Positions 12,272 through 45,719 of a stretch of DNA of 45,777 nucleotides are shown here, in pieces. The position numbers and the translations under genes were made by a program. The notes below the pieces were generated by a model. It did no database searches, had not been told where the DNA came from, and saw nothing but the letters and a program-made list of their open reading frames with translations. How positions within the stretch are numbered: the stretch's first letter is position 1; each line of letters begins with the position of its first letter. Origin of the DNA: Endozoicomonas sp. G2_2 (lineage in GTDB: Bacteria; Pseudomonadota; Gammaproteobacteria; Nevskiales; Salinisphaeraceae); assembly GCF_017744135.1 (NCBI RefSeq), contig NZ_JAGHQU010000019.1, forward strand, positions 1-45,777, in the 5' to 3' direction.

Positions 12272-13810
12272 GTGTGCAAGCAAGCATTGATCAACCGCGT
12301 GCCGGCGCGCAACATAACAGTATTCCCGGGCCTGCTCGCGGTCTATAGCGTGGCTTTGCTTGCTGGCGCGCTTCTGCCGCTAGCTTTCGCGCCGTTGGGT
12401 TGGTATTGGCTCGCCGTGCTGTCGCCGGCTGCTCTATTCCTACTGGCCGCCCATCTACCGAAACGCCAAGCGCTCTGGACGAGCTATTTCTTCGGCCTGG
12501 GTTACTTCGGCGTAGGCGTGTCCTGGGTGTTTATCAGCATCAGTCGCTACGGCAGCGGGCCTGCGCTTGCCATGTTCCTCACTGCGGCCTTTGTGGCCTT
12601 GTTGGCCTTGTTCCCGTGGTCAGCGATATTTCTCGTGCGCACCTTATGCTCGCGGACGGGTGGTTTCGCACTGTGGCTTGGATTGCCGGCGGCATGGGTA
12701 TTGAGCGAATGGGTCCGGCTCTGGTTCCTGACCGGCTTTCCTTGGCTTTTTCTAGGTTACAGCCAGATCGGCACACCGCTTGCCGCAATCGCACCGGTGT
12801 TTGGCGTGCTGGGCGTGAGCTTTGTTGTGGCCGTGATGGCAGGTGCTCTGGCGTGGACGATGCTTCGTTTCAGCTTGTGGCGCCTGGCAATCACAAGCGG
12901 CGCACTGGTGGCGCTATTGCTCGGCACATCACTGCTTGATCGTGAATGGACCGAGCCGGTCGCCAAACCCCTGTCCGTCGCGCTTGTGCAGGGGAATATG
13001 AAACAAGACAGGAAGTGGAAGCCGGAGGCGCTCGCGTTCACCTTGAGGCGCTATCGAGCGCTTACCCAACCCTACGCGGGAACCGACCTTATCGTCTGGC
13101 CGGAAACCGCCGTGCCGGCGTGGTTCGGTCAAGCCTCTGAATATTTAGACCGATTCCAAACACGCCTCGGCGCACGCGGATCGACCCTGATACTCGGGAT
13201 TCCCGTGCGCACCGACCAAGGCCAGGCATACAATGCCGCCGTCAGTTTGGCTCGTCCGCGTCGGTTCTATTACAAGCGCCATCTGGTGCCCTTCGGTGAA
13301 TACGTCCCACTGCGCGGACTCGTCGGCCCATGGCTCAATATCCTGGGCGCGCCGGTAGAAGACTTCAGTGCAGGCCAGCGACCGCGACTGCTATATGCCT
13401 CCGGCGTGCCCATCGGTGCATTGATTTGCTTTGATGTGGCGTTCGGCGCTGAAGTCGCCGACCTGCTCCCGGCCGCGCAGTTGTTGGTCAACCTGAGTAA
13501 CGACGCCTGGTTCGGGGATTCCCTCGGGCCGCATCAACATCTGCAAATTGCGCAAATGCGCGCCATTGAGACTGGGCGTCCGCTCTTACGTTCAACCAAC
13601 ACCGGCCTCACGGCCATGATCGACCACAACGGTCAAGCGCTGGCCCGCGCGCCACAGTTCGAGTCGACTGTTTTGCCGGCAGAGGTTACACCGCGCACGG
13701 GGACCACGCCCTACGTCCGCTGGCGGGACAAGCCGGTACTGGCTTTCATTGGGATCGCGCTGAGCATGCTCGTTTGGGCAGGGAAAAGGCAAAGGGATTC
13801 TTCGCGCTGA
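12272..13810 (+). CDS. lnt: Apolipoprotein N-acyltransferase
   Basis: Inner-membrane enzyme that adds the third acyl chain to the N-terminal cysteine of lipoproteins. The 512-residue product starts at GTG 12272, with AGGA seven bases upstream. Several N-terminal helices (to about 225) precede a nitrilase-like domain. The catalytic triad is in place: Glu278 in WPETAVP, Lys335 in KRHLVPFGEYVP, and Cys386 in LICFDVAFG, where the usual CYE is CFD. A second lipoprotein-processing gene, lspA, follows downstream, and both lie in a metal-responsive cluster. It is likely an accessory copy; the housekeeping gene would normally sit elsewhere next to corC. Confidence 0.93.
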   Translation: MCKQALINRVPARNITVFPGLLAVYSVALLAGALLPLAFAPLGWYWLAVLSPAALFLLAAHLPKRQALWTSYFFGLGYFGVGVSWVFISISRYGSGPALAMFLTAAFVALLALFPWSAIFLVRTLCSRTGGFALWLGLPAAWVLSEWVRLWFLTGFPWLFLGYSQIGTPLAAIAPVFGVLGVSFVVAVMAGALAWTMLRFSLWRLAITSGALVALLLGTSLLDREWTEPVAKPLSVALVQGNMKQDRKWKPEALAFTLRRYRALTQPYAGTDLIVWPETAVPAWFGQASEYLDRFQTRLGARGSTLILGIPVRTDQGQAYNAAVSLARPRRFYYKRHLVPFGEYVPLRGLVGPWLNILGAPVEDFSAGQRPRLLYASGVPIGALICFDVAFGAEVADLLPAAQLLVNLSNDAWFGDSLGPHQHLQIAQMRAIETGRPLLRSTNTGLTAMIDHNGQALARAPQFESTVLPAEVTPRTGTTPYVRWRDKPVLAFIGIALSMLVWAGKRQRDSSR

Positions 13811-14529: not shown

Positions 14530-14571
14530 CGTGGCGATATATACGTGCACTGCGAACAGGAGTCACAGCTC

Positions 14572-15078
14572 GTGTCTACGGGGTCGATAGGCGGCACGCT
14601 GAAAAGTGCTAGCCCGACCGACAAGCTGCGGTGGCTGGGGTTGTCTCTTGCGCTGCTGCTCGTAGATCAAGCAGCCAAGTACGCGGCCAGCACCTATCTT
14701 GACTATGGTGAGCGCAGAGCCGTCACAGAGTTTTTTAGCTGGACACATCTACATAATACGGGTGCCGCATTCAGCTTTCTGGCCGATGCGGGTGGGTGGC
14801 AACGGGCATTCCTGATCGGTGTCGCCGTTGTCATATCGGCCTTTCTGTTGCGCTGGCTGTGGCGCGGGGTGACTTCGCAAGGTCAAGGGATCGCGCTCAG
14901 TGCGATTTTAGGCGGTGCGCTGGGCAACTTGACGGATCGCCTGCTACGCGGCTACGTCGTGGACTTTCTCGATTTCCATTTCGCACAGTACCACTGGCCG
15001 GCATTCAACCTGGCCGACGTCTGGATCACAACCGGCGCTGCATCACTGATGTGGGCACATGCAAGATACCGCGAGTGA
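14572..15078 (+). CDS. lspA: Lipoprotein signal peptidase, accessory copy 1
   Basis: Signal peptidase II, an aspartyl protease of the inner membrane that cleaves prolipoprotein signal peptides. GTG 14572 is chosen because CAGGAG lies nine bases upstream; it gives 168 residues. Four helices and the two catalytic aspartates, Asp122 in GNLTDR and Asp149 in FNLADVW, are intact, as is NTGAAFSFL. PbrC of lead-resistance operons is the same enzyme family, which fits the PbrR-like regulator here. A closely similar second copy lies on the minus strand at 45144. It starts 42 bp after the CDF gene. Confidence 0.94.
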   Translation: MSTGSIGGTLKSASPTDKLRWLGLSLALLLVDQAAKYAASTYLDYGERRAVTEFFSWTHLHNTGAAFSFLADAGGWQRAFLIGVAVVISAFLLRWLWRGVTSQGQGIALSAILGGALGNLTDRLLRGYVVDFLDFHFAQYHWPAFNLADVWITTGAASLMWAHARYRE

Positions 15079-24422: not shown

Positions 24423-26399
24423 ATGACTCGACATACACACGATAGCGACCGACGTCGCCTGTTGCGCGCCATGGGCGCGACCGGCGTGCTGGCCGGCTTC
24501 AATGCGTTGTTACCAGCCTATGCCCGCAACGGCCTGGCCGCTGGCGCGGCAAGATACCTCGACACCGCCGCCGCTCAGGTCCCGGGCGGCGCCGCACGCG
24601 ATGTGGTGATGGACGTCCATGTCCGCCGCGAGATGATCGATATCGCCGGCGGTCGCGCGTCGGCCATTACGCTGAACCACACCACGCCCGGCCCGATCGT
24701 CGAACTCTGGGAAGGACAGAACGCCCACCTGCGGGTGCATAACCATCTCGACGAGTCGACCTCGATCCACTGGCACGGCATTTTGCTGCCGTTCCAGATG
24801 GACGGCGTGCCCGGCGTCGCCTTTCCCGGCATCGATCCCGGCGAGACCTTCGAAGTCGATTTTCCGGTGCGCCAGGCCGGCACCTACTGGTACCACAGCC
24901 ATTCCGGGCTGCAGGAGCAAGTTGGCCAGACCGGGCCGATCGTGATTCATTCGCAAGGCGACGACGGCATCAATGCCGACCGCGAGTACGTCATCGTACT
25001 CAACGACTGGACCTTCGAGGATCCGCATCGTCTGCTCGCAAAGCTCAAGGAAATGAGCGATTACTACAACTTCAGCGAGCGCACGCTCGGCGATCTGGCC
25101 GAGGATTTTCGCCAATCCGGCGTCGCCACCACGCTGAAGGATCGCCTTGCCTGGGGCGACATGCGCATGAGCCCGCGCGATATCGCCGACGTCACCGGTT
25201 ACACCTATAGCTACCTGATGAACGGCGTACACCCGGATGCGAACTGGACCGGCCTGTTCACGCCCGGCGAGCGTATTCGCCTGCGCGTGATCAACGCCTC
25301 CGCGATGACCTATTTCAACGTCCGCATGCCGGGCTTGCCGATGACCGTGGTAGCGGCCGACGGCAAGGAAGTGCAGCCGGTCGAGACCGACGAGTTTCAG
25401 ATCGGCGTGGCCGAGACCTTCGACGTGGTGGTCGAGCCCCGGGCCGATCAGGCCTACACGATCATGGCCGAAACCATGGACCGCAGCGGCTATGCCCGCG
25501 GCACGCTCGCGCCGCGGGCGGGCATGGTCGCGCCCGTGCCGGCGCTGCGCGAACAGCCGCAGCGCACGATGGTGGATATGGGCATGGACATGAGCCAGAT
25601 GGACATGGGCGGCATGGACATGTCGCACCGCCAAGGCCAGAAGGCGATGGATCACGGCTCGATGCAAAAGATGGCCATGCCCCAAAAGGAATCGGGCATG
25701 GCCGGGATGTCGCATCAGGGCCACAAGATGGCCGACTCGAAGATGTCTGGAAAAATGGCCGGCATGGGCCACGATATGAAAAAGATGGCCCATGGCACGG
25801 GCCCGAATGCCGGGACCATGGGTACGGGCGCAATGATGGAACAATCCGGGCCGGTGATCGCCAAGCACGGCCCCGACATGCACGGTGCCGGCAATATCAA
25901 CATCGCCAACGTACAGCGTGATCGCCTCGCCGAGCGCGGCACCGGGCTGGAGGACGTCAATCATCGCGTGCTCACCTACAGCCAGCTGCGTAACGTCGTT
26001 CCAATGCAGGACCGGCGTGAACCGTCGAAGACCATCGAGATCCATCTCACCGGCAATATGGACCGCTATATGTGGTCGTTCGACGGTGTGAAGTACTCCA
26101 ACGCCACACCGATCGAGTTTCCGTACGGCGAGCGGATTCGGCTGATCATGGTTAACGACACGATGATGGAACATCCCATCCATCTGCACGGCATGTTCAT
26201 GGAGCTGGAGAACGGCCAGGGCGAGCACCTGCCGTTCAAGCACACCCTAAGCGTGCTGCCGGGATCCCGCGCATCGCTGCTGATCACGGCAGACGAACCG
26301 GGCCGCTGGGCCTTTCACTGCCATCTGCTCTATCACATGGAAATGGGCATGTTCCGCGTCGTGCGCGTGAGCGATCAATCCGGAGACAAGAATGCTTAA
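24423..26399 (+). CDS. copA: CopA/PcoA copper-resistance multicopper oxidase
   Basis: Periplasmic multicopper oxidase of 658 residues, exported by Tat (DRRRLLRAMGATGVLAG). Copper ligands appear in the normal order: HWHGILLPFQMDG, YWYHSHSG, HPIHLHGMF and FHCHLLYHMEMGMFR. Between about 380 and 490 lies a long Met/His-rich insert with MDMSQMDMGGMDMSH repeats, which binds several copper ions in the Pseudomonas and E. coli homologues. A gap-free reading frame and all ligands point to an active enzyme. It overlaps copB by 8 bp. Confidence 0.96.
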   Translation: MTRHTHDSDRRRLLRAMGATGVLAGFNALLPAYARNGLAAGAARYLDTAAAQVPGGAARDVVMDVHVRREMIDIAGGRASAITLNHTTPGPIVELWEGQNAHLRVHNHLDESTSIHWHGILLPFQMDGVPGVAFPGIDPGETFEVDFPVRQAGTYWYHSHSGLQEQVGQTGPIVIHSQGDDGINADREYVIVLNDWTFEDPHRLLAKLKEMSDYYNFSERTLGDLAEDFRQSGVATTLKDRLAWGDMRMSPRDIADVTGYTYSYLMNGVHPDANWTGLFTPGERIRLRVINASAMTYFNVRMPGLPMTVVAADGKEVQPVETDEFQIGVAETFDVVVEPRADQAYTIMAETMDRSGYARGTLAPRAGMVAPVPALREQPQRTMVDMGMDMSQMDMGGMDMSHRQGQKAMDHGSMQKMAMPQKESGMAGMSHQGHKMADSKMSGKMAGMGHDMKKMAHGTGPNAGTMGTGAMMEQSGPVIAKHGPDMHGAGNINIANVQRDRLAERGTGLEDVNHRVLTYSQLRNVVPMQDRREPSKTIEIHLTGNMDRYMWSFDGVKYSNATPIEFPYGERIRLIMVNDTMMEHPIHLHGMFMELENGQGEHLPFKHTLSVLPGSRASLLITADEPGRWAFHCHLLYHMEMGMFRVVRVSDQSGDKNA

Positions 26400-27201
26400 A
26401 CAATCGACCCCAACCATCCTCGGCGCGGCCGTTCTTCTTTTGGGATCTACGGCCCCAGCTTTTGCGGCATCCGATGGCAAAGCCGATCTCGACTCGGTCA
26501 TCCCCCAGGGGCCCGTCGAGCCCTCAAGCGGGGCGCCGCTGGCCTGGAAAAAGCCCATCAAAGATCAGCAGATTCATAAGTTCTTCCTGATCGATCGCCT
26601 CGAGTACGGCGACGTCGAGGGCACCAACAACTATCTCTGGGACGCTCAGGGCTGGATCGGCGGCGACTACAACAAACTCTGGTTCAAGACCGAGGGCGAA
26701 GGCCCGATGCGCGGTGGCTCCCCCGAGAGCACCGAATTTCAGGCGCTCTACAACCGCACGATCTCGCCGTTCTGGAGTGCGCAGGCCGGTCTGCGCTACG
26801 ACGTCAACCCGAATCCGGACCGCGGCTTTGCCGTGTTCGGGTTGCAGGGCTTGGCGCCGTACTGGTTCGAGTCCGACACATCCCTGTTCGTCAGCGAGGA
26901 CGGCGACGTAAGCTTTCGCGGCGAGTTCGAGTACGAGCTGCTGCTCACCCAGCGCCTGATCCTACAGCCGCGCGCCGAAATCAATGCCTCAGCCCAGGAT
27001 GTGCCGGAATACGGACTGGGCAGCGGTCTCAATAACACCGAGATGGGGATCCGGCTGCGCTACGAGATCAAGCGCGAGTTCGCGCCTTATATCGGCGTAC
27101 GCTGGGAGCAGACCTATGGCGAAACCAAGGACATCGCCCAGGCCGAAGGCGAGGAAACGTCGTCGACCGCTTTCGTGGTCGGTATCCGCGCCTGGTACTG
27201 A
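26392..27201 (+). CDS. copB: CopB/PcoB copper-resistance outer-membrane protein
   Basis: Outer-membrane beta-barrel protein of 269 residues partnering CopA. Signal peptide to about APAFAAS. Typical CopB sequence follows: FFLIDRLEYGD, WDAQGWIGGDYNKLWFKTEG, EFQALYNRTISPFWSAQAG, FEYELLLTQRLILQPR and the C-terminal WY, whose final aromatic residue is the barrel-insertion signal. The Met/His-rich N-terminal repeats of Pseudomonas CopB are absent here. It starts within the copA stop region; the next gene begins 97 bp later on the same strand. Confidence 0.95.
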   Translation: MLKQSTPTILGAAVLLLGSTAPAFAASDGKADLDSVIPQGPVEPSSGAPLAWKKPIKDQQIHKFFLIDRLEYGDVEGTNNYLWDAQGWIGGDYNKLWFKTEGEGPMRGGSPESTEFQALYNRTISPFWSAQAGLRYDVNPNPDRGFAVFGLQGLAPYWFESDTSLFVSEDGDVSFRGEFEYELLLTQRLILQPRAEINASAQDVPEYGLGSGLNNTEMGIRLRYEIKREFAPYIGVRWEQTYGETKDIAQAEGEETSSTAFVVGIRAWY

Positions 27202-27298: not shown

Positions 27299-27649
27299 AT
27301 GGCGTTAACGGGCCTACTCACCATCATGGGCACGATCGTGGCGGGCGCCCTGCTGTTGCAGTGGGTTGCGGCACGCACTCGTCGCGATCGCGTGGTCGAG
27401 CCGCAGAAGATCCCGTTTCTCGGGGGTAGCGCACCGAACACGCACGCCTGGCAGCGTTTTCATGTGCGTTACTACTCGATGACGCTGCTGTTCATCGCCT
27501 TCGAGATGGAGATGATGTTCATGTACCCATGGGCGGTCGTGTACGTCGCCGAAGGCGTCAAGGCGCTCGCGGAGATGGGCATGTTCCTCGCCATCCTCAC
27601 GGTGGGCATTCTCTACGGCTGGCGCGAAGGTATCTTTCGGTGGCAGTGA
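27299..27649 (+). CDS. NuoA-like subunit of a non-canonical complex I membrane arm
   Basis: Three-helix membrane protein of 116 residues, the ND3/NuoA homologue, from ATG 27299 with AGAGGA upstream. Conserved NuoA features are RFHVRYYSMTLLFIAFEMEMMFMYPWA, split here as RFHVRYYSMTLL and FEMEMMFMYPWA, corresponding to the FDLE/FPWA region. The loop that in true complex I reads YECG, whose cysteine lies near the quinone site, is FLGG here, so that cysteine is lost. First gene of the operon 27299-35451; no strong promoter is visible in the 97-bp gap after copB, so co-transcription with cop is possible. Confidence 0.88.
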   Translation: MALTGLLTIMGTIVAGALLLQWVAARTRRDRVVEPQKIPFLGGSAPNTHAWQRFHVRYYSMTLLFIAFEMEMMFMYPWAVVYVAEGVKALAEMGMFLAILTVGILYGWREGIFRWQ

Positions 27650-28902
27650 AGATGCTCGAGCGCCTGGCGGCACGCGCTCCCGTGCCGGTATTCGTGGCCA
27701 TGGGGCGCGACCGCGCCCCTGCCGTCGAGCGCTTGCTGCGGAATGCGGATATCGACGTGACCGCCACACCCCGGCACGCCAGTATCCTGTTGGTCGCGGG
27801 CCGCGTCCGGGATAGCGACCAGGCCTACCTCGACCGGCTCCACGACCAGCTCCCCCACCCACGCGCCACGTTCTGGTGGGGGGACGAGCCTCAAGCCGAC
27901 GTGGACGACGCCCAGCGCGCTGCGTCATCCGACGATCCAGTAATTTCTTTACGTGCGCTTTACCGCAACCTGATTTCCGGCGCCCATGCATCGGAGACGC
28001 ACCGGCTCCCGGACGAGCCACCCGCTCCCTGGCGCGGCAAGGGCGATCACGGTCAGGGCGGCGAAGGGATGATGGGTGGCGTGCCCTACGGGCGCATGAT
28101 GCCCATGCCGCCGACGCCGGATATTCGCGACGGGCTAACGCTGGATGTCTACACCACCCAGATCGGCCCGTTCATGCCGTACTGGCCCGCTGGACTGGTA
28201 CTGGAGGTGACGTTCCAGGGCGACGTGATCCAGTCAGCCGAAGTGGTTAACCCAACCTATCCGCCGCGCGACGTCGATCGCGTACCGTTCGATCACTTGC
28301 TGCACGAAACGACGGCCCTTGCGCAGATCGAGCGAGCACGCGCTGCGCACCATCTCGTGTGCATCGCCCGCCTCCTGTCGCTCGTCGGATTGCCAACACT
28401 GAGTCGGCGCGCCCAAATATTGGCGGCACGCGTACGCGCGAACGAGACCATCGCTATTGCGCCGCTGCGAAAAGCGGCCGCCCGATCCGGTTTGAAGGCT
28501 GCACTCGCGCCGGGGCTCGGTCGGATCGATGACCGACTGGCGCGTGAACTCGGCGGCCCGGTACAACGCGCTGCCGGCCACGCCATCGACCACCGCAGCG
28601 ACAACCCAACGTACACACGACTCGACTTCACGCCGGTCATGCAAACACAAAGCGACTGTCGAGCGCGTCTGGCGCAGTGGTTCGACGAAGCCGAACAAGC
28701 GCTGGCGCTCGTTTCGGCGGCACCCGACGCGATGATCGACCATGGCGCACTTATCGAGGCGCCATGGGCGCATCGGGCACCGCCGATCGATTATCGCGTA
28801 ACCGAGCTGTTACCGGGGCTTGAATGGAGTGAGGCGCTGCTGGTGCTCAACAGTTTCGATAGCGCCGCGCTGTGTCGCATGGCGCCACTGGAGGCCCCAT
28901 GA
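27640..28902 (+). CDS. Fused NuoB/NuoD-like protein lacking Fe-S cysteines
   Basis: A 420-residue soluble protein, read from GTG 27640 (AAGG nine bases before; ATG 27652 is an alternative), overlapping the NuoA-like gene by 10 bp. Residues 43-84 resemble NuoB (TPRHASILLVAGRV, then LHDQLPHPRATFWWGDE), but the position where NuoB has the first N2-cluster cysteines is GDE and the whole NuoB-like part has no cysteine. A Gly/Met linker (GEGMMGGVPYGRMMPMPP) leads to a NuoD-like part: DIRDGLTLDV, GPFMPYWPAGLVLEV, FQGDVIQSAEV and ERARAAHHL. The true NuoD quinone residues cannot be located. It probably serves as a redox-inactive peripheral cap or coupling subunit. Confidence 0.78.
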   Translation: MAVKMLERLAARAPVPVFVAMGRDRAPAVERLLRNADIDVTATPRHASILLVAGRVRDSDQAYLDRLHDQLPHPRATFWWGDEPQADVDDAQRAASSDDPVISLRALYRNLISGAHASETHRLPDEPPAPWRGKGDHGQGGEGMMGGVPYGRMMPMPPTPDIRDGLTLDVYTTQIGPFMPYWPAGLVLEVTFQGDVIQSAEVVNPTYPPRDVDRVPFDHLLHETTALAQIERARAAHHLVCIARLLSLVGLPTLSRRAQILAARVRANETIAIAPLRKAAARSGLKAALAPGLGRIDDRLARELGGPVQRAAGHAIDHRSDNPTYTRLDFTPVMQTQSDCRARLAQWFDEAEQALALVSAAPDAMIDHGALIEAPWAHRAPPIDYRVTELLPGLEWSEALLVLNSFDSAALCRMAPLEAP

Positions 28903-29813
28903 CCCCGATCGTTCTAACCATGACCTGGGTCGCTTTCCTCCTCGGCATGGCGTGGTACATAGCCGTGCTCGACGGGCTCTGGGCGGCCGCGCGCGAAGGT
29001 CGACAGCCGCGCGCGCCGCTCGCCAACCCGCTCTACCGGTGCGCCACGATACTGCGTCAACAGTCCAACCTGACCGAAGCGCCGGATTTGCTGAACTGGC
29101 GCTTGGCGCCTGCGCTGTACGCTGGGCTGGCTGGTACCGGTGTCGCACTCGTGCCTTTTTCCAGCACCAACGTACTTGCGGACCTCGAAGTCGGCATCGT
29201 CTGGTGGGGCGCCGTCGAAGCGCTGACGGTTGTGGTCGTCTTCCTGCACGGTTGGTCGGCCAATTCCCAATTCGGCCTGATCGGCGCCTACCGCTATGTC
29301 GCCATCGGACTGCCGGTGATGCTGATCAGCATGTTCGTGCTTATCGCCGCGGCGTTGCCCGCCGAGTCGCTGGCTGTTCCGAAGATCATCGAATCCCAGC
29401 GCGAACTCTGGAATGTCATCCGCCAGCCGCTCGGGCTCCCGCTTTTCCTGCTGCTTGGCCTGTCTCTAAGCTTCAGAGGCCCGTTCAACTATGCCGACTC
29501 GGCGGATATTGCGGGCGGCACCGCGGCCGAGGTATCCGGCGCGCCGCGACTGGTCTGGGAATTCGCGCGGCTCGCGATGCTTACAGCGGTGGCCACCGTA
29601 GCGGCCAGTGTATTCCTGGGCGGCTACCTGGGGCCCTGGCTGCCCGGGCCGGTATGGCTGGTGCTCAAGACCGCAGCCGTGCTTCTGGTCCTGGTCGGCC
29701 TCAGCCACCAGCTGGCTCGGATTTCGCCGAGTCGGATGATGACTTTGATCTGGACGGTGCTACTGCCGCTATCGTTCCTGCACCTGGTATGGGCCGGAGT
29801 ATTGGCGCTATGA
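28899..29813 (+). CDS. NuoH-like membrane subunit without the quinone-site loop
   Basis: A 304-residue membrane protein from ATG 28899, overlapping its upstream neighbour by 4 bp. It aligns by eye with NuoH: LADLEVGIVWWGAVEAL and HGWSANSQFGLIGAYR match the DLNIGLLY and GWSSNSKYALLG blocks. The acidic loop that in NuoH reads AETNRPPFDLPEAESEL is replaced by FRGPFNYADSADIAGG, and the ERK-QDRKGPN element at the N terminus is gone. Those are the parts that build the quinone cavity, so the subunit likely keeps only the structural or ion-path role. Confidence 0.8.
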   Translation: MTPIVLTMTWVAFLLGMAWYIAVLDGLWAAAREGRQPRAPLANPLYRCATILRQQSNLTEAPDLLNWRLAPALYAGLAGTGVALVPFSSTNVLADLEVGIVWWGAVEALTVVVVFLHGWSANSQFGLIGAYRYVAIGLPVMLISMFVLIAAALPAESLAVPKIIESQRELWNVIRQPLGLPLFLLLGLSLSFRGPFNYADSADIAGGTAAEVSGAPRLVWEFARLAMLTAVATVAASVFLGGYLGPWLPGPVWLVLKTAAVLLVLVGLSHQLARISPSRMMTLIWTVLLPLSFLHLVWAGVLAL

Positions 29814-30412
29814 ACGTCACCGATATCACATTCTGGATCTTCGCGGCGATCGCCGTGGTAAGCGGCTGGCGCGTGTTCTGCACCGACTCGATGGTTCGCG
29901 CCTCGTTCCTCCTGATGCTGTCGTTCATCGCCGTCGGCTTGATCATGGTCTTGCTGAACGCGCCATATCTCGGCATCGCGACCGTCTTCATGATGGCAGT
30001 GGAGATGATGGTGATGGCGTTGTTCATGGTCATGTACATGATGAACCCGGCGGGCCTGAATCCGATGATGATGGTGCACCAGCACCGTTTCTCGATCGCG
30101 GCCGGCGTCTTCCTCTTCGCGGCACTGGCCGGTCTGATCATTGTCACGCGCTTTGCCTCCAACCCGGTCGCACCGGGCACCGAGGTCGTCGCCGGCCTCG
30201 GCAAGGAACTGCTCGGCGACTCGATGCTGATCTTCGAAACCGCCGGTGTCACGCTGCTGGCAACCATGGTTGCCAGCGTCATTCTGTCGAGCCGCAGCGG
30301 ACGCTTCGGCGCCGCCGATACGGGCTCGGTACCGCCGCCCCTGGAACCGGGTGGCGAGCCGGCGGGCCGTCAGCCGGAACAGGGCGGCGGCCACGCCCAT
30401 CATCACCACTGA
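29810..30412 (+). CDS. NuoJ-like subunit with Met-rich helix and His tail
   Basis: A 200-residue membrane protein, NuoJ homologue by position, size and topology (five helices), overlapping the NuoH-like gene by 4 bp. Residues 59-91 contain a dozen methionines (VFMMAVEMMVMALFMVMYMM and NPMMMVH), far above normal. The C terminus ends in a Pro/Gly-rich stretch and GGGHAHHHH, which is a natural His cluster. Both features are reminiscent of metal-binding segments elsewhere in this window. Glu65 sits inside the Met-rich helix. The NuoJ assignment leans on context more than on sequence. Confidence 0.75.
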   Translation: MNVTDITFWIFAAIAVVSGWRVFCTDSMVRASFLLMLSFIAVGLIMVLLNAPYLGIATVFMMAVEMMVMALFMVMYMMNPAGLNPMMMVHQHRFSIAAGVFLFAALAGLIIVTRFASNPVAPGTEVVAGLGKELLGDSMLIFETAGVTLLATMVASVILSSRSGRFGAADTGSVPPPLEPGGEPAGRQPEQGGGHAHHHH

Positions 30413-30425
30413 TCGAGAGGCGCTC

Positions 30426-30731
30426 ATGACACTCACAACGATATTGGTCGTCGCCGCCGCGCTCATCGGCATCGGGCTCTACGGCACGTTGTCGCAACAG
30501 TCTTTCGTGATGCTGATGATGGGCCTCGAACTGATGCTCAACGGCGTCATGCTCGCAGCGGTCGGTTTCTGGTCGCTTACCGCAGGCGGCCTGCCGACAG
30601 GCCAGCTGCTGACCATTATCGTGATGGCCGTGATGGCGGTCGAAATGGCCGTAGGCTTCGCATTGATCACTGCGGTCTACCGCAATCGCCAGGCTGATGT
30701 CACCGAAGGCCTGACGACGCTGAAGCATTGA
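30426..30731 (+). CDS. NuoK-like subunit
   Basis: A 101-residue, three-helix membrane protein matching NuoK in length and pattern, beginning 13 bp after the NuoJ-like gene. The two functional glutamates are kept: Glu35 in MMGLELMLNGVMLAA and Glu73 in MAVEMAVGFAL, equivalent to Glu36 and Glu72 of E. coli NuoK. They form part of the proton path, so this subunit looks competent in ion translocation even though the electron-transfer parts are missing in the operon. Confidence 0.9.
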   Translation: MTLTTILVVAAALIGIGLYGTLSQQSFVMLMMGLELMLNGVMLAAVGFWSLTAGGLPTGQLLTIIVMAVMAVEMAVGFALITAVYRNRQADVTEGLTTLKH

Positions 30732-30733
30732 TC

Positions 30734-32557
30734 ATGCTCTGGCTTGTCGCCCTGTTTCCGCTTTTCGCTGCCGTCATCGTTCATGCGTCGCCGATGCAGC
30801 GCCGTCCCGCTCTGGGCGCTACGGGCTGTGGTGTGCTGCTGGTCACACTATTGCTGACGGTTTTCGCGGGCCTGGAGGGCTGGGTCGGACGATTCGCCTG
30901 GAGTACCCCGCTTCAGTTCGAGGTGGTACTGACCTCACGGTCGGTCGTCATGGCGTTGCTGGTACCGGTCATTGCGCTACCCGTGCTGGCCTACGCCGCG
31001 GCCCACGAACGCTTGCAGGGTTTGAACCGTCTGGTATCGCTGTTACTGCTGTTCGTCGGCGCCATGCTGTTGCTGGTGATCGCGGCCGACCTTATCACCC
31101 TGCTTATCGGCTGGGAGCTAGTCGGCGCCTGCTCTTGGGCGTTGATCGGGCACGAACGGCAACGCGTATCGCATGCGGCCTCGGCGCGCTACGCATTCGT
31201 GATGACCCGTTTCGGCGATCTCGGACTGTTCGTCGCGGCCATGGTCGTGTTCAGGGATACGGGTACCTTCGCTTTTGCCGCGCTCGAAACCCTCGGTGGG
31301 CCGCAGCAAACGATTCTGGTTGCCGGGATCGTACTGAGCGCGGCCGCGAAATCCGGGCAGCTCCCGTTCGCGCCGTGGTTGTTTCGTGCCATGGACGGGC
31401 CGACGTCGGTGTCTGCCCTGCTGCATTCGGCCACCATGGTCGCTGCAGGGGCCTATCTGTTGATCCGGCTCGAACCCATACTCGCTCAGATGCCTTGGTT
31501 TGGACCTGCCTCAATCGGCATCGGACTCGCCACGGCGCTTGCAGGCGGTTTGACCGCCCTGCTCCAGCCTCACGCAAAGAAATTGCTCGCGGCTTCCACC
31601 TCTGCACACTACGGTTTGATGTTCGTCGCGGTCGGCGCTGGCTATCCTGAAATAGCGCTGCTGCATCTGGTGGCGCACGCGGTATTCAAGGCATTGCTGT
31701 TTCTAAGCGCCGGCATCGCGGGCCGTCAGGCCGTGAGTTTCAGCCTGACGGAGATGGGCTTCGGGCGCGTCCTCCCAATCACGGCCGTGGCAACCGCGGT
31801 CGGTGCGCTCGCCTTGGCCGGTATACCACCCCTGGGCGCAGCGTGGACGAAGGAAATGATGGTCACGGCCGCCGGGCATTTCAGCCCTTGGTTGGCGTTT
31901 GCCGTCATGCTTGCCGGCGCCCTGAGCGCGGCCTATGCCATGCGCTTTGTCTATAGCGCCTATGGCCCTAGCGCCAACGATAGCAGCGCCACGTCGCGAA
32001 CGACCGAAACCATAGCGACCGGTTCGCTGGCTGCCACCAGCCTGGCGCTTGCCCTACTCTGGCTGCCAGGCATACAGCAGGCGTTGGGCGGCTGGTTCGC
32101 GACCCCGTTTCCGGCGCCCCCGGCCTGGGAGACCATCGGCTCGTTGCTGGCTGTCGGTGTCGGTCTGTACGCCGGCCTCCTGATCGCGCGCCTGCACCCG
32201 GCGCTGGGCGCGAGCGGCGCGCTCGCAAGCTGCGCCGACTGGCTTGGCCTGCCCTTCGCGATCGATCGCTTGATCGGGCGCCCCATTCATGCGCTCGCAC
32301 AGCGCTGCGCAGGATTCGACGATGCCATCATCGATGGCGCCGTGCGCCGAATCGGCGCCGGCGGGCTCTTCACAGCGCGTGTCGCCTATCGAGGGCTAGA
32401 CCGTCTTGCCGACGGCCTGCCGGAGGGCGCCAATCGCTGGTTTGCCCTGAGCGGCGATGACAGCCGCCGTTTCCAGACCGGGCTTTCACACCACTATCTT
32501 GCCTTCATGGCCGCGGGCGCCGTGGTGTTGGCGATCATTCTCTTTGTGGGGCGCTAG
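30734..32557 (+). CDS. NuoL-like antiporter-type subunit
   Basis: Large membrane protein of 607 residues from ATG 30734 (TTG 30728 is also possible). Mrp/NuoL-type motifs are kept: Glu128 in GWELVGACSWALIGH, Lys206 in AAKSGQLPFAPWL, followed by MDGPTSVSALLHSATM, and the KE pair in AAWTKEMM. The family carries out proton or cation transfer. A C-terminal part (about 490-607) is present, though whether it forms the long lateral helix of NuoL cannot be told by eye. All residues needed for a channel seem intact. Confidence 0.93.
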   Translation: MLWLVALFPLFAAVIVHASPMQRRPALGATGCGVLLVTLLLTVFAGLEGWVGRFAWSTPLQFEVVLTSRSVVMALLVPVIALPVLAYAAAHERLQGLNRLVSLLLLFVGAMLLLVIAADLITLLIGWELVGACSWALIGHERQRVSHAASARYAFVMTRFGDLGLFVAAMVVFRDTGTFAFAALETLGGPQQTILVAGIVLSAAAKSGQLPFAPWLFRAMDGPTSVSALLHSATMVAAGAYLLIRLEPILAQMPWFGPASIGIGLATALAGGLTALLQPHAKKLLAASTSAHYGLMFVAVGAGYPEIALLHLVAHAVFKALLFLSAGIAGRQAVSFSLTEMGFGRVLPITAVATAVGALALAGIPPLGAAWTKEMMVTAAGHFSPWLAFAVMLAGALSAAYAMRFVYSAYGPSANDSSATSRTTETIATGSLAATSLALALLWLPGIQQALGGWFATPFPAPPAWETIGSLLAVGVGLYAGLLIARLHPALGASGALASCADWLGLPFAIDRLIGRPIHALAQRCAGFDDAIIDGAVRRIGAGGLFTARVAYRGLDRLADGLPEGANRWFALSGDDSRRFQTGLSHHYLAFMAAGAVVLAIILFVGR

Positions 32558-32558
32558 C

Positions 32559-34043
32559 ATGCTCACGGCCACCATTCTGATCCCGCTGCTGGGCGCGCTC
32601 GCGTTCAGTTTCTTACGCCTGAATGAACCAGCGTACCGATGGCTCGCCTGCGGCGTAGGCAGTGCGCCGTTGCTCCTGCTCGCAGCGGTCTGGCTCGGCT
32701 TCGATACCAGCACGGACGCACCCGCGTTTCAGTACGTTGTCGACTATCCGTGGATTCCGGCGCTCGGCATTGGCTGGCGTATGGGTGTCGATGGTATCGC
32801 GCTGGTAGTCGCCACAATGAGCGCCCTGCTGTTCGTCGCGGCGATCGCTTGGCCCGCCGAAACACGAGGGCGGGCGCGAGAATACTACGCGTGGTTTCTA
32901 TTTCTCGAAGCGGTATCGCTCGGCGTGTTCCTTACCCTGGATCTGGCGCTGTTCTATGTCTTCTTCGACCTGAGCCTGGTCGGTCTGTTCTTCCTGATCG
33001 GGCGTTGGGGCCACGGCGATGCCGAGCGAGCCGCGATCAAGTTCTTCGTCTATACATTTGCCGGTTCTTTGGCCATTCTGCTGGCGATCATCGGCCTGGT
33101 GCTAGCGACCGACCCGCTGACCTTCGACATGCGTACGCTGATCGCCGAACAGGCACTCGCAGGCATGGACCTGCGCGCGACGCTAGTCCTTGTGGGATTC
33201 GTCGTCGGCTTCGGTATCAAGACGCCGTTCGTACCCCTGCATACCTGGCTGCCGCCAGCGCACGTGAATGCGCCCGGTCCGGCTTCGGCCGTGCTCGCGG
33301 GCGTGCTCCTCAAGATGGGCGCCTATGGTCTCATTCGCATTCCCTATTCGATGCTCAGCGAGACCTTCGCACGCTATGCTTTCGCGCTGGCCGTTCTGGC
33401 GGTCATCTCGATCCTCTGGGGCGCGTTGGTCTCGATGGCGCAGCGCGATCTCAAACGCCGCATTGCCTATACGTCAGTCAATCATATGGGTTATGTGCTG
33501 CTGGGTATCGCCGCGGCCGCAACGATAGGCGGCGAGCAGGCCGCGCGGCAGATGGCGTTAACCGGTGCCACCGTAGAAATGGTCGCACACGGACTGATCA
33601 CCGGCGCGCTGTTCTTAATCTGCGGCGCGTTCTGGCAGCGCACCGGCGACTACGACCTCGAGCAGTACGGCGGTCTGAGCCAGGTCGCGCCGAACCTCAC
33701 ACGTTTCACGGTTCTCGCGTCGTTCGCGAGCCTGGGTTTGCCGGGGCTCGCCGGTTTCGTTGCCGAGCTGCAGATATTTGTCGGTGCTTTCAGCGTCTAT
33801 CCGTGGCTGGCCGCCATCGCGCTGCTGGGTATTCTGATTACCGCCGCGCTCTTCCTGCAGATGCTGCAACAGCTGTTTTTCGGTGAGCTGCCGGCGGACC
33901 GCAAGAGCTTCGGCGATCTCGCGCGCGTCGAAATCGGCGTCCTCGCCATACTCGCACTGCTGATCGTGGTGATCGGCATATATCCAAATTGGCTGCTGAC
34001 ACCGATCAGCAGTGCAACCGCCTTATTGACGGCCGGGTTCTAG
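32559..34043 (+). CDS. NuoM-like antiporter-type subunit
   Basis: A 494-residue membrane protein from ATG 32559, beginning 1 bp after the NuoL-like stop. The NuoM landmarks are present: FFLIGRWGHGDAERAAIKFF, Lys221 in FGIKTPFVPLHTWLPPAH, and the GVLLKMGAYGLIR helix. The key glutamate of the LFFVFWEL block (Glu144 in E. coli NuoM) is Asp137 here, in LFYVFFDLSLVG. Aspartate may still carry protons but this change is not usual. The stop is one base from the NuoN-like start. Confidence 0.93.
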   Translation: MLTATILIPLLGALAFSFLRLNEPAYRWLACGVGSAPLLLLAAVWLGFDTSTDAPAFQYVVDYPWIPALGIGWRMGVDGIALVVATMSALLFVAAIAWPAETRGRAREYYAWFLFLEAVSLGVFLTLDLALFYVFFDLSLVGLFFLIGRWGHGDAERAAIKFFVYTFAGSLAILLAIIGLVLATDPLTFDMRTLIAEQALAGMDLRATLVLVGFVVGFGIKTPFVPLHTWLPPAHVNAPGPASAVLAGVLLKMGAYGLIRIPYSMLSETFARYAFALAVLAVISILWGALVSMAQRDLKRRIAYTSVNHMGYVLLGIAAAATIGGEQAARQMALTGATVEMVAHGLITGALFLICGAFWQRTGDYDLEQYGGLSQVAPNLTRFTVLASFASLGLPGLAGFVAELQIFVGAFSVYPWLAAIALLGILITAALFLQMLQQLFFGELPADRKSFGDLARVEIGVLAILALLIVVIGIYPNWLLTPISSATALLTAGF

Positions 34044-34044
34044 G

Positions 34045-35451
34045 ATGCCGGTCAGCGACGTTCTCCCCGAACTCAGCGTTCTGGTCAGCGCGGTGGTGCT
34101 GCTACTGGCGGCGAGCTTCATGCGCGAGCGCGATCAGTGGTTGGCTGCCCCGGGCGCGCTCATCGGTCTGACCGTGGCAGCCGCGTTCTGTCTGGCCCAA
34201 TTGGGCGAGGCCCCGAGACTGACTTTTTCGGGGGTCTGGGCCCTCGACGGCGCCAGCATCTGGGCGCGCGTGATCATCCTGGCCACGGCTGCCTTGAGCG
34301 TTCTGCTGACGCCCGAATGGCTGCGCAGCGACCGGCGCCACGGCGAATACTATGCGATCTTGTTGTTGGCCACACTCGGGGCCATGCTGCTTGCCGGCGC
34401 GGCAGACCTGATGCAACTGATTATGGCCGTCCTGCTGTCCTCGGTGACGGGCTATACGCTGGCCGCGTACCACCGTAGCTGGCCGCTGTCGGTCGAAGCC
34501 GGCATGAAGTATTTTCTGGTTGGCGCGTTGGCGAACACCCTGCTCGTGCTCGGAGTGACGTTGATGTTCGGGCTGTTTGCCACCACGGACTACGGCGAGT
34601 TGGCCGCCCGCACGAACGACAGTCCGCAATGGATGACGCTCGTCGCCTTCGGCCTCGTCGTTGTGGGTGTCGCGTTCAAGCTCGCTGCCGTGCCGGCCCA
34701 TACCTGGATGCCGGATGTCGCCGAGGGCGCGCCGCCGCCCGCGGCCGCCTTTCTCACTATTGCACCCAAGGTCGGCGCGGCCATCGCGCTGGCCCGCTTC
34801 GTCGATCTGTTCCCGCAGCAAGACATTGCCTGGCGCGCCGTGGTTGCTACGATCGCGGTCGCGACCATGACCATCGGCAACCTGGGCGCGCTTGCTCAGA
34901 ATGACGTGCGGCGCATGCTGGGCTGGTCCTCGGTCTCGCAATCCGGCTACGCACTGATGGCGGTTGTCGTGCTGGGGCTCGACCCCTATGCCCTGCCGGC
35001 TTTGCTGTTCTTTCTCGCAGGTTATGCCGTCGCGAACCTCGCAGCATTTGGTGTCGTGACGCAACTACGCGGGCGCACGAACCTGGCCGACTATCGCGGC
35101 CTCGCCACCGCTCATCCGCTGCTCGCGGCCGCACTGATCCTGAGTTTCCTATCGCTGGTGGGTATTCCACCGCTTGCCGGTTTCGTCGGCAAGCTGGCGC
35201 TGTTCGTCACCACGATTGAATCCGGCTACGCCTGGCTGGCGGTGCTCGCGCTGGTCAATACCGTGGTCTCGCTCGTTTACTACCTACGCGTGTTGGCACC
35301 CGTATATTTCGCCGAGCCGGCACGGCCCATGCACACACTCGGCTACTGGGCGGCACTCTCTGTCTTCTTATGTGCGTCGTTTACCGTCGCTCTGGGCGGC
35401 TTGGCGGATCCTCTCTGGCGGATGCTGTCACAAGCGACCCTAATTCCCTAG
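34045..35451 (+). CDS. NuoN-like antiporter-type subunit
   Basis: A 468-residue membrane protein, last gene of the complex I-like operon. Lys212 in FKLAAVPAHTWMPDVAEGAP and Lys242 in TIAPKVGA are the conserved lysines of the family, and SVEAGMKYFLVGALAN is clear. The helix-5 glutamate of NuoN (about Glu133 in E. coli) aligns with Leu130 in DLMQLIMAVLLSSVTGY, so the acidic half of the usual Glu/Lys pair is missing. The ion path through this subunit may be silent or changed. Nothing downstream continues the operon. Confidence 0.92.
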   Translation: MPVSDVLPELSVLVSAVVLLLAASFMRERDQWLAAPGALIGLTVAAAFCLAQLGEAPRLTFSGVWALDGASIWARVIILATAALSVLLTPEWLRSDRRHGEYYAILLLATLGAMLLAGAADLMQLIMAVLLSSVTGYTLAAYHRSWPLSVEAGMKYFLVGALANTLLVLGVTLMFGLFATTDYGELAARTNDSPQWMTLVAFGLVVVGVAFKLAAVPAHTWMPDVAEGAPPPAAAFLTIAPKVGAAIALARFVDLFPQQDIAWRAVVATIAVATMTIGNLGALAQNDVRRMLGWSSVSQSGYALMAVVVLGLDPYALPALLFFLAGYAVANLAAFGVVTQLRGRTNLADYRGLATAHPLLAAALILSFLSLVGIPPLAGFVGKLALFVTTIESGYAWLAVLALVNTVVSLVYYLRVLAPVYFAEPARPMHTLGYWAALSVFLCASFTVALGGLADPLWRMLSQATLIP

Positions 35452-36719: not shown

Positions 36720-37628
36720 CTAGCGGCGTGCTGCAGGCCCCGCGAGATGCGAGCTAGCGTTTTGATTGGTTTCCGGCTGCAATGTGCTGTGTCCGACACC
36801 AAAATCCCGCTGCAGCAGTTCTTGCAGCTTGGGGAGAACTTCTTCCCACTGTCCGATCTGGTCGAGCTTTATTTGCGCCGATAACGCATGTCGGCTCGAT
36901 GAGAGAGACCAAACATGAATGTGGTGGGCCTCCACAACACCCTCGACCTCTGCCATAGCGCGCTTCAGATTATCGATATCGACATGACCGGGCGTGCCTT
37001 CCATAAGGACGCGTAGAACATCACGTAGAACGTTAATGCTCGCAAAGCCGATCAGCACACTGATGAATAGTGACAACAGCGGATCAATCGGGAGCCATCC
37101 CGTGAGATAGATGATTAGCCCGGCCAGCAACGCTGCGACCGAGCCCGCCAGATCACCCATCACGTGCAACAACGCGGCACGCACGTTCATGCTTTTCTCG
37201 CCCCGCATGAGAATCCACGCGACCGCGATATTGACGAGTAAGCCTATAAAGGCAACCACCATGACGGTGGTTCCACCTACTTCCTGTGGGTTTGCAAGCC
37301 GCTCGAAAGCGGCTACGACAATCCAAACGACAACGCCCAGCATGAACAGGACATTCACCAACGCCCCGATAACTTCGGCGCGGGCATAGCCATACGTGTG
37401 TTTTGTCGATGCACGCCGCTGGCTCAGCCACGCAGCGAATGCCCCAATGCCGAGAGACATGGAATCGGTGATCATATGACCTGCATCAGCGACCAGGGCC
37501 AATGAATTGGCCCAGAGTCCACCGATCACTTCCACAATCGCGAACCCGGTCGTGAAAACGAGAGAGATGATCAGTAGCTTACCGCTGGCATGCCCGTGGC
37601 TATGACCGCCGTGGTCGTGCTCACTCAT
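36720..37628 (-). CDS. czcD: CzcD-type cation diffusion facilitator
   Basis: Inner-membrane Zn/Cd/Co-proton antiporter of 302 residues. The start is ATG 37628, preceded by AGGAG and followed by a His-rich hook (MSEHDHGGHSHGHASG); the open frame upstream of it is antisense noise. Six helices with ADAGHMITD (helix 2, H and D of the zinc site) and HVMGDLAGS (helix 5) are canonical. The cytoplasmic C-terminal domain has HHIHVWSLSS, the usual metal-binding fold. It overlaps the PII-like gene by 8 bp, so both are made together. Confidence 0.95.
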   Translation of the reverse strand: MSEHDHGGHSHGHASGKLLIISLVFTTGFAIVEVIGGLWANSLALVADAGHMITDSMSLGIGAFAAWLSQRRASTKHTYGYARAEVIGALVNVLFMLGVVVWIVVAAFERLANPQEVGGTTVMVVAFIGLLVNIAVAWILMRGEKSMNVRAALLHVMGDLAGSVAALLAGLIIYLTGWLPIDPLLSLFISVLIGFASINVLRDVLRVLMEGTPGHVDIDNLKRAMAEVEGVVEAHHIHVWSLSSSRHALSAQIKLDQIGQWEEVLPKLQELLQRDFGVGHSTLQPETNQNASSHLAGPAARR

Positions 37629-37974
37629 CTGAATCTCCTGCCTTCGGCGAGTGGCGAACGGCGTTTTCATTGCGCTGTCCGTCGCTGATTCGAATGGCAT
37701 CCCGCAAGTCCGAGATGAAAACCTTCCCATCACCAAGATGGCCTTCACCGGTACGCGCACTTGCCACGATCGCGTCAACCACCCTATCTGCAAGGGCTTC
37801 CGGCACGTCGATTTCGAGCTTGGCCATTTTGACCCGCTCCAATCCGCCGTCTTGGACATGGCCGTATTCACGCAGGTGCACCACAGCAATCCCGGGTATG
37901 CCGTCAATGTCCGCCAGGGCTGACATCACCTGTTCGAGCATGACCTCTCGTACATAAGCCTTGATTTCTTTCAT
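37621..37974 (-). CDS. PII-like regulator linked to metal efflux
   Basis: Cytoplasmic trimeric signal protein of the PII superfamily, 117 residues, starting MKEIKAYVREVMLEQVMSAL, with a short T-loop and the C-terminal block ASARTGEGHLGDGKVFI that in PII proteins binds the nucleotide. A distinct PII group (often called PII-NG) is known to sit next to heavy-metal RND genes, which agrees with the place here between czcA and czcD. It may bind the efflux protein or sense a nucleotide or metal; the partner cannot be read from sequence. It starts 14 bp after czcA. Confidence 0.88.
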   Translation of the reverse strand: MKEIKAYVREVMLEQVMSALADIDGIPGIAVVHLREYGHVQDGGLERVKMAKLEIDVPEALADRVVDAIVASARTGEGHLGDGKVFISDLRDAIRISDGQRNENAVRHSPKAGDSDE

Positions 37975-45143: not shown

Positions 45144-45644
45144 TCAGTTGCCGTATTTTCTATGCGCCCAGATCAGTAATGCGGCTCCCGTGGTAATCCA
45201 GACATCGGCCAGGTTGAATGCCGGCCAGTGATACTGTGCGTAATGGACGTCGAGAAAGTCGACCACATGGCCGCGTAGCAGGCGATCCGTCAAGTTGCCC
45301 AGTGCACCGCCTAGAATTGCACTGAGCGCGATCGCTTGACCTTTCGAAGTCCCCCCGCTCCACAGCCAGCCCAGCAGCATGACCGATATGACAATGGGCA
45401 CACCGATCAGGAATCCCCGCTGCCAACCACCCGCATCGGCCAGAAAGCTGAATGCGGCACCTGTATTGTGTAGATGGATCCAGCTAAAAAACTCTGTGAC
45501 GGCTCTGCGCTCACCATAGGCGAGATAGGTGCTGGCCGCGTACTTGGTTGCTTGATCCAGAAGCAGCGTCACGAGGGATAATCCCAACCAACGCAACCTG
45601 TCGGCCAGGCTAGAACTTTTCAGCGTGTCCTCCCCTATCGTCAC
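45144..45644 (-). CDS. lspA: Lipoprotein signal peptidase, accessory copy 2
   Basis: Signal peptidase II of about 166 residues, very similar to the protein at 14572 over its whole length (HLHNTGAAFSFLADAGGWQR is identical). Catalytic aspartates in GNLTDR and FNLADVW are intact. GTG 45644 is chosen by alignment with copy 1; GTG 45665 and TTG 45695 are alternatives without a clear ribosome site. The region that should hold its promoter is taken by the left end of an IS3-family element, so the gene may have lost its native control. Confidence 0.9.
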   Translation of the reverse strand: MTIGEDTLKSSSLADRLRWLGLSLVTLLLDQATKYAASTYLAYGERRAVTEFFSWIHLHNTGAAFSFLADAGGWQRGFLIGVPIVISVMLLGWLWSGGTSKGQAIALSAILGGALGNLTDRLLRGHVVDFLDVHYAQYHWPAFNLADVWITTGAALLIWAHRKYGN

Positions 45645-45689
45645 CCCCGCACGACCATCCCCCACTATTGAGTAGCAGGCCGATCTGGA

Positions 45690-45719
45690 GTCCAATCACC
45701 CGAAGTCTGGAGATTGGAC
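45690..45719. repeat. 8-bp inverted repeat before the IS transposase
   Basis: GTCCAATC (45690-45697) and GATTGGAC (45712-45719) are exact inverted copies with a 14-base loop, ending directly before the ATG of the transposase. They probably belong to the left end of the insertion sequence. The true terminal repeat cannot be fixed with only one end in view. Confidence 0.5.

Follow-up and report, generated by a model that had tools for sequence, protein, structure and literature searches.

The 45,777-nucleotide stretch of Endozoicomonas sp. G2_2 analysed here (contig NZ_JAGHQU010000019.1, positions 1 to 45,777; below, the window) carries an operon at 27299-35451 that encodes a relative of the membrane arm of respiratory complex I. 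It comprises eight genes, all open frames on the + strand, in the order A-X-H-J-K-L-M-N, where each letter stands for the Nuo-like subunit of that name and X for a fusion of a NuoB-like half, a putative metal-binding insert and a NuoD-like half. Judged from its sequence and that of its relatives, we are fairly confident that the complex is redox-inactive and handles a metal.

The NuoA-like subunit (116 aa; 27299..27649; PF00507, E 5e-25) has the loop HAWQRFHVRYY and a second transmembrane helix (TM2) reading FEMEMMFMYPW. X (418 aa; 27646..28902) starts at GTG 27646, with ATG 27652 also possible. It is followed by the NuoH-like subunit (28899..29813; PF00146, E 1e-38), the NuoJ-like subunit (29810..30412; PF00499, E 2e-17), which has a methionine-lined TM3, a TM3-4 loop with methionine and histidine and a His-rich C-terminus, and the NuoK-like subunit (30426..30731; PF00420, E 2e-17). 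The three antiporter subunits, NuoL-like (30734..32557, or from TTG 30728), NuoM-like (32559..34043) and NuoN-like (34045..35451), match PF00361 with E-values of 4e-51, 4e-63 and 1e-60. One NCBIfam nuo cut-off is passed by each of K, M and N, and none by A, H, J, L or X.

The initial annotation of this DNA had placed, within a copper-resistance cluster, a complex I-like arm that lacks electron input. The eight open genes, their Pfam matches and the copB gene upstream bear this out. The genes are tightly packed, but the overlaps of 4-10 base pairs (bp) that it gave are not exact: the junctions A/X, X/H and H/J overlap by exactly 4 bp each, K/L does so only when L begins at TTG 30728, and the remaining junctions are gaps of 1, 1 and 13 bp. 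The operon does lie directly after copB (26392..27201, +; PF05275, E 2e-90), which ends 97 bp before the start of A on the same strand and is preceded by a copA-type multicopper oxidase gene (24423..26399, +; Pfam multicopper oxidase domains). On its 3' side it faces genes on the opposite strand, encoding a Sel1 protein, a CDF transporter and an RND efflux set of the CzcCBA type, which run towards it. With copB directly on one side and opposite-strand genes directly on the other, no nuoCDEFGI-type genes lie just outside as part of the same operon.

The host genome is 3.73 Mb in size, and among named relatives the closest in X is Salinisphaera japonica (98%). X is present in a single copy. A canonical complex I is encoded separately, on contig C27, where nuoA, H and J-N were identified by searching and E, F, G and I were assigned from place and length only. 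An Mrp-like set, called Mrp from scores alone, lies apart from the operon on contig C1.

Relatives of the operon

Other carriers of the set belong to the Gamma-, Alpha- and Betaproteobacteria and to the Actinomycetota, and it also occurs on plasmids. Named bacterial genomes were scanned with a profile built from seven X proteins of the proteobacterial type and with two stretches of the Met-rich motif as patterns, so that only this type of X could be recovered. The scan gave 117 relatives, and the 80 best loci were retained. Matches with X numbered 23 in plasmid records, and further actinobacterial plasmid loci were reached through H or J. The family set of 91 loci consists of 78 of the 80 genome loci and 13 plasmid loci, which were chosen for variety, not at random. 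Two genome loci that are cut short (L038, L044) and three interrupted or fragmentary plasmid loci (L026, L027, L030) were left out, and X-profile matches of about 30 bits (L122-L131), presumed to be canonical NuoD, were not counted.

A, H, J, K and L were recovered in all 91 loci, X in 90 (that of L178 was missed by its own query), M in 88 and N in 86. Four of the five loci lacking a NuoN match stop at contig ends. The fifth, L088, reads A-X-H-J-K-L with no match to M or N although the contig continues. The genes lie in the order A-X-H-J-K-L-M-N, which was seen directly in annotated plasmid records; a listing by stop-to-stop frames exchanges some neighbours that overlap. When genes of the host genome were used as phmmer queries on the stretches of 94 related loci, NuoE, NuoF and NuoI were found in none of them (NuoC was not queried), and NuoG-like matches occurred in three, one annotated as fdhF.

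Against two relatives, the ratio of nonsynonymous to synonymous substitution rates (dN/dS) of each of the eight genes lies within 0.05-0.25. One branch of a NuoH tree, with a support of 95 in the Shimodaira-Hasegawa-like approximate likelihood ratio test, separates 31 rows of the family from 21 canonical ones, the latter all from Pseudomonadota; the outgroup, E. coli HyfC, formed a very long branch. A profile of J run over an even sample of 398 Pseudomonadota genomes gave nine genomes, the host included, with at least 203 bits, the next best match scoring 63 bits. The operon represents a conserved family and is not debris.

Plasmids of the Mycobacterium avium group (L177, NZ_AP012556.1) carry the operon near genes for a P-type ATPase and a MerR-type regulator, and in five records from this group J is identical over the matched 87%. 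Three plasmids have a potassium-channel-type gene close upstream of the operon (L026 8168-8584, L029 7750-8154, L180 5996-6874).

Subunit X

X had been read as a NuoB/NuoD-like fusion, and both halves could be traced. Pfam assigns it to the 49-kDa/NuoD family (PF00346, E 2e-8), and it reaches the NuoB family (PF01058) only below cut-off, at 0.049. Profile searches with the NuoB half gave E-values of 5e-8 to PDB chain 8b9z_B and 7e-8 to NDUFS7. In hhalign, residues 37-80 align with NuoB (E 2.7e-7) in an alignment that ends at E. coli residue 128, before Cys129, and the second half of X aligns with NuoD (E 1.1e-6). An AlphaFold2 model built from 55 sequences had a mean predicted local distance difference test score (pLDDT) of 84.3. 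The top Foldseek match to this model was NdhH (6nbq_H, E 1e-6); NdhH, MBS and complex I 49-kDa chains lead the matches, and NuoB-type chains appear at ranks 44 and 50.

The residues on which redox chemistry depends in complex I are missing from this fold. The ligands of cluster N2 in NuoB are E. coli Cys63, 64, 129 and 158. In the window's X the NuoB half contains no cysteine at all, and the scattered cysteines that other members have in this half are not conserved among 13 aligned X rows. Both histidine columns of the NuoD quinone-site motif GPxHPxxHG are replaced in 13/13. The three cysteines of the window's X (residues 239, 338 and 410) are scattered and form no CxxC, and the CxxC pairs of the NiFe site of group 4 hydrogenase large subunits were not found in it. 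As far as sequence allows, redox chemistry is excluded.

Between the two halves, all 13 aligned X proteins carry an insert of a metal-binding kind, whether Met-rich, His-rich or a heavy-metal-binding domain (HMBD). That of the window is Met-rich and occupies residues 126-155 (PAPWRGKGDHGQGGEGMMGGVPYGRMMPMP; 28021..28110, +), and residues 139-160 are disordered in the AlphaFold2 model. The proteobacterial insert follows the pattern GGEGMMGGxPYGRxMxM, in which Met142, Met143, Met152, Met154 and most glycines are invariant in the seven proteins obtained from whole-protein searches. The same residues are invariant in 55/55 rows of a larger set, partly by selection, 54 of these rows having come from the scan that used the insert motif as its pattern. 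Actinobacterial inserts are rich in His and Met, with long HGE runs in Pseudonocardia. A third type of X, in Paracoccus, Nitratireductor, Sulfitobacter and Rubrobacter, is annotated with heavy-metal-binding domains. Pfam confirmed HMBD fused to the 49-kDa domain in loci L023 (three stretches) and L179 (two). Putative metal-binding devices of different kinds fill one and the same place in X.

Membrane subunits

Family residues were compared with canonical controls of 18-47 sequences per subunit, which are all from Pseudomonadota, include some genomes twice and hold no actinobacterial canonical complex I; the other controls were PDB chains only. In A the methionine content is 8.2% in the family and 3.0% in the canonical sequences, in J 8.9 and 4.3%, and in K 9.2 and 4.0%, an increase in all three. 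In the other subunits the family has less methionine than the canonical sequences: 2.8 and 4.2% in H, 2.2 and 4.5% in L, 2.9 and 5.1% in M, and 3.0 and 5.0% in N. The 91 loci include many close Halomonadaceae and, for the test of column conservation only, were thinned to 38 non-redundant loci. There the conservation of the Met-consensus columns was 0.89 in both A and J and 0.85 in K, compared with 0.64 in H, 0.70 in L, 0.73 in M and 0.62 in N. Their excess over other hydrophobic columns was 0.34 in A, 0.24 in J and 0.12 in K, and 0.04-0.07 in H, M and N.

The most constant changes are in J. Met28, 61, 62, 66, 69, 73, 77, 78, 86, 88 and 139 and His90 are present in 91/91 family proteins and in at most 6% of 32 canonical ones. 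Glu65, a new residue in the middle of TM3, is found in 90/91, again with at most 6% among the canonical 32. Met62 takes the position of E. coli Tyr59 on NuoJ helix 3, which is Tyr in 32/32 canonical and Met in 91/91 family sequences. Residues 61-90, picked out by the comparison of family and canonical residues, form a putative soft-metal signature (MMAVEMMVMALFMVMYMMNPAGLNPMMMVH; 29990..30079, +). This signature is common to all three X types (91/91), and the search pattern included none of its sites. On TM3, seven gained residues fall within an arc of 160 degrees (p 0.012-0.017).

K gains Met29, 31, 67, 70 and 74 in 91-100% of the 91 and keeps Glu35 and Glu73, the latter as Asp in 8/91. A gains His49, His55 and Met61, 70, 72, 73, 75 and 95, as judged against 10 canonical rows only; His49, His55 and Met70, 72, 73, 75 and 95 occur in 88-100% of the 91 family rows and 0/10 canonical ones. 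In the available parts of a study of complex I (PMC10212512), A, J, K and part of H make up the E-channel, the pi-bulge gate has its key tyrosine on J TM3, and the TM3-4 loop of J communicates with the TM1-2 loop of NuoA at the quinone cavity. The gained residues, putative ligands by their kind, sit in exactly these E-channel and quinone-cavity loop elements of A, J and K.

The proton arm is largely kept. L has equivalents of Glu144, Lys229 and Lys399 in 90, 90 and 89 of the 91 loci. In M the TM5 residue Glu144 is Asp in 84/88 and most pump residues are retained, while in N the TM5 residue Glu133 is Leu in 83/86 and the lysines are kept. In H the equivalent of E. coli Glu157 is retained in just 7/91. 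Some NuoJ C-termini are His-rich (L028 10799-11701, L029 10877-11587, window 30380-30409), the tail in L028 being about 100 residues longer than that of the window.

Copper genes near the operon

Copper markers were sought with 11 queries at thresholds that we set, in stretches of up to 10 kb per side, some shorter; matches to copper ATPases had to contain a CPC or CPH motif and DKTGT. A marker was present in the fetched stretch of 37/78 genome loci and in 1/38 control stretches of 20 kb, taken from 13 genomes mostly without the operon (Fisher p 2e-7). Counted by genus or title, a marker lies near 21/38 (Fisher p 3e-7), and 10/13 plasmid loci have one. The commonest flanking families are multicopper oxidase, CopB, EgtB, Cu-ATPase, EgtD, CusA and copper-type regulators.

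EgtB, an enzyme of ergothioneine synthesis, is encoded in the flanks of 17/78 genome loci, often directly downstream of N (for example L022 20102-22374, L052, L055, L062 and L099). Ergothioneine is a thione that binds soft metals, and such neighbours would for that reason fit a copper role.

Discussion

The reading we favour is that the operon encodes a redox-dead branch of complex I specialised for a soft metal, most likely Cu(I) and possibly Ag(I), and working as a metal/H+ antiporter driven by the proton-motive force; on the sequence evidence we give this specific form about an even chance. Putative soft-metal ligands sit at the soluble inlet, at the former quinone cavity and at what was the gate of the E-channel, and the proton arm is largely kept; the simplest machine would be a Cu(I)/H+ antiporter. 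In CusA and CTR1 methionines serve as ligands along the path of copper. In the proposed cycle the insert of X, whether Met-rich, His-rich or HMBD, would take cytoplasmic Cu(I) and deliver it to the former quinone cavity, which the NuoA loop with its histidines and the NuoJ TM3-4 loop with its Met and His now border. The metal would then cross the membrane by a Met-lined path in the former E-channel, formed by J TM3, K TM2/3 and A TM2, and protons entering via L and M, and part of N, would pay for its passage. CopA/CopB and RND pumps could then handle the copper in the periplasm. We infer the passage of the metal, its identity, its direction and the coupling to protons, and we hold the full export cycle tentatively, at slightly less than an even chance. 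The insert in 13/13 X proteins and the conserved Met, His and Glu at the E-channel and quinone-cavity loops of A, J and K go beyond the initial annotation. Among the roles it had listed, they favour the metal-cation antiporter, while Na+/H+ exchange, already in print, stays as a rival.

Several observations weigh against an antiporter of this kind. The X motif served as a search pattern, so its constancy in the scanned loci is partly selected. The excess of conserved Met columns is not confined to A, J and K, with L at 0.17. Adding Met78 weakens the arc test on J TM3 to p 0.087, the face of K TM3 is borderline (p 0.056), the Met gains of A TM2 and of K TM2 share no single helix face in this test, and the model of J is of modest confidence (pLDDT 66.8). 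Copper genes do not accompany the set everywhere: 41/78 genome loci lack a marker by the 11 queries, several loci stand alone among unrelated-looking genes, and two of the plasmid loci inspected have no copper gene beside the operon. Patterns for CueR, CsoR, CopY and CopR-like regulators gave no convincing site upstream of A in the 91 loci, with upstream counted from the stop-to-stop frame of A and not from its start codon. The CueR pattern was found in 0/91, a CopY-type pattern in 5/91 against 0.3 expected, four of the five being near-identical sequences of Halomonadaceae, and a CsoR-like pattern in 7/91 against 1.8 expected. A scan for promoters and terminators found nothing beyond shuffled sequence. 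Many of the carriers found belong to marine or halophilic genera, as would also suit the published explanation of such operons by salt.

That explanation goes back to Salinispora, where seven nuo genes, named a 'second partial NDH-1 operon', were read as pumping Na+ or H+ for marine life in the sections available of Penn and Jensen (2012, PMC3314556). The same reading was adopted for Streptomyces and Kocuria, with genes nuoA, H, J, K, L, M and N, in the corresponding parts of Ian (2014, PMC4018334), Sun (2018, PMC6002675), PMC6676996 and PMC8622039. Two papers of this group mention, in those parts, strains from copper-rich sources and draw no link. In the available portion of a 2025 survey of prokaryotic complex I (PMC12361115), partial Nuo sets are reported on plasmids, and the words 'copper' and 'metal' are absent from the main text. 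Text searches of the open-licence literature returned no entry that linked such a partial nuo operon to copper. The initial annotation had allowed that similar truncated clusters might exist in databases, and this partial operon is one in print. It is probably the same family, to judge by gene content and not by sequence: it shares nuoA, H, J, K, L, M and N without other nuo genes and is scattered in Actinobacteria with proteobacterial kin, and the accounts as available mention neither an eighth gene X nor the Met signature nor copper.

A role in salt or marine life as a pump or antiporter of Na+/H+ or H+, which these papers propose for marine actinomycetes, would suit the halophilic genera among the carriers and the pump residues of L and M, nearly all of which are retained where tested. 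We consider it unlikely: the conserved Met, His and HMBD ligands have no evident part in Na+ chemistry, the operon has copper neighbours, and the carriers include Pseudonocardia, Rhodococcus and Mycobacterium plasmids, with soil, river sediment and sputum as sources. A proton valve or sensor gated by copper, in which metal bound to X would open or close the arm and alter membrane potential or pH without itself crossing, draws on the same copper context, on a metal-binding soluble head set on an antiporter arm and on the loss of the TM5 Glu of NuoN. The conserved methionines within the membrane helices J TM3 and K TM3 exceed what a sensor needs, and we consider this reading unlikely too. The same ligands would equally suit an importer or supplier of copper or another soft metal, for copper oxidases for instance, and stand-alone loci occur; we find this quite improbable, the commonest flanks being of the resistance type (multicopper oxidase, CopB, P-type ATPase, CusA and CueR).

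Two further explanations keep closer to complex I itself. The relation of the X fold to NuoB and NuoD might point to a redox pump with copper as electron carrier, or one borrowing quinone chemistry. X, however, has neither conserved iron-sulphur cysteines nor the quinone-site histidines, and there is no electron partner among the eight genes, which leaves such a pump very improbable. The lack of NuoC, E, F, G and I from the operon could also be the mark of a decayed copy of ordinary complex I, to which we attach next to no probability. The operon is not such a copy: the dN/dS values, the separate side of the branch that the family takes in the NuoH tree and the same gene set across many lineages contradict decay, which we reject, and the genome has its own canonical complex I elsewhere.

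The favoured antiporter can be set beside known systems on these terms. Like respiratory complex I, the operon encodes the seven membrane subunits A, H, J, K, L, M and N, has the NuoB and NuoD folds in X and retains antiporter residues, those of L and most of those of M. It differs in having no NADH/flavin mononucleotide module, N2 ligands or quinone-site His, with E, F, G and I not among the eight genes, and in having the Met/His/Glu gains in A, J and K, the insert in X and the change of NuoJ Tyr59 to Met. Mrp antiporters are redox-free complex I relatives that exchange a cation for protons (PMC7419157, in the part available). The operon does not form an MrpA-G-type set, and adds NuoA, NuoH, a NuoB/NuoD-type head and putative soft-metal ligands. 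Membrane-bound hydrogenases and Fpo and Hyf-type complexes have in common with it a complex I-like arm joined to another input module, but X has no paired cluster cysteines. P1B-ATPases, RND pumps (CusA) and CDF copper exporters presumably have a similar task and share no domain with the eight genes.

If the operon does export copper, it would add a fourth, multi-subunit inner-membrane design to P1B-ATPase, RND and CDF, and, to our knowledge, be the first complex I relative with a soft transition metal as cargo. Such a new class of copper transporter, in which the quinone chamber has become a metal-loading chamber and the E-channel a Met-lined Cu(I) path, spread by plasmids from actinomycetes to proteobacteria, is a proposal we put forward with a little less than even confidence. 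Were transport confirmed, there would be a further copper efflux machine, environmental and plasmid-borne, whose subunits are now annotated 'NADH-quinone oxidoreductase', and the salt-adaptation reading repeated since 2012 would be corrected. It has long been asked how events at the quinone cavity of complex I are coupled to proton channels far from it. In a relative from which the redox step has gone, with a metal ion seemingly in its place, coupling could be studied without electrons, and NuoJ helix 3, the proposed gate, is the very element that has been rebuilt.

Other features of the window

Two lspA genes for signal peptidase II (14545-15078, +; 45144-45695, -) and an lnt gene (12272-13810) lie within one metal-resistance island. 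A gene for a P-II-like regulator (37621-37974, -) is located between the CzcA-type RND gene and the CDF transporter gene and overlaps the long CDF reading frame.

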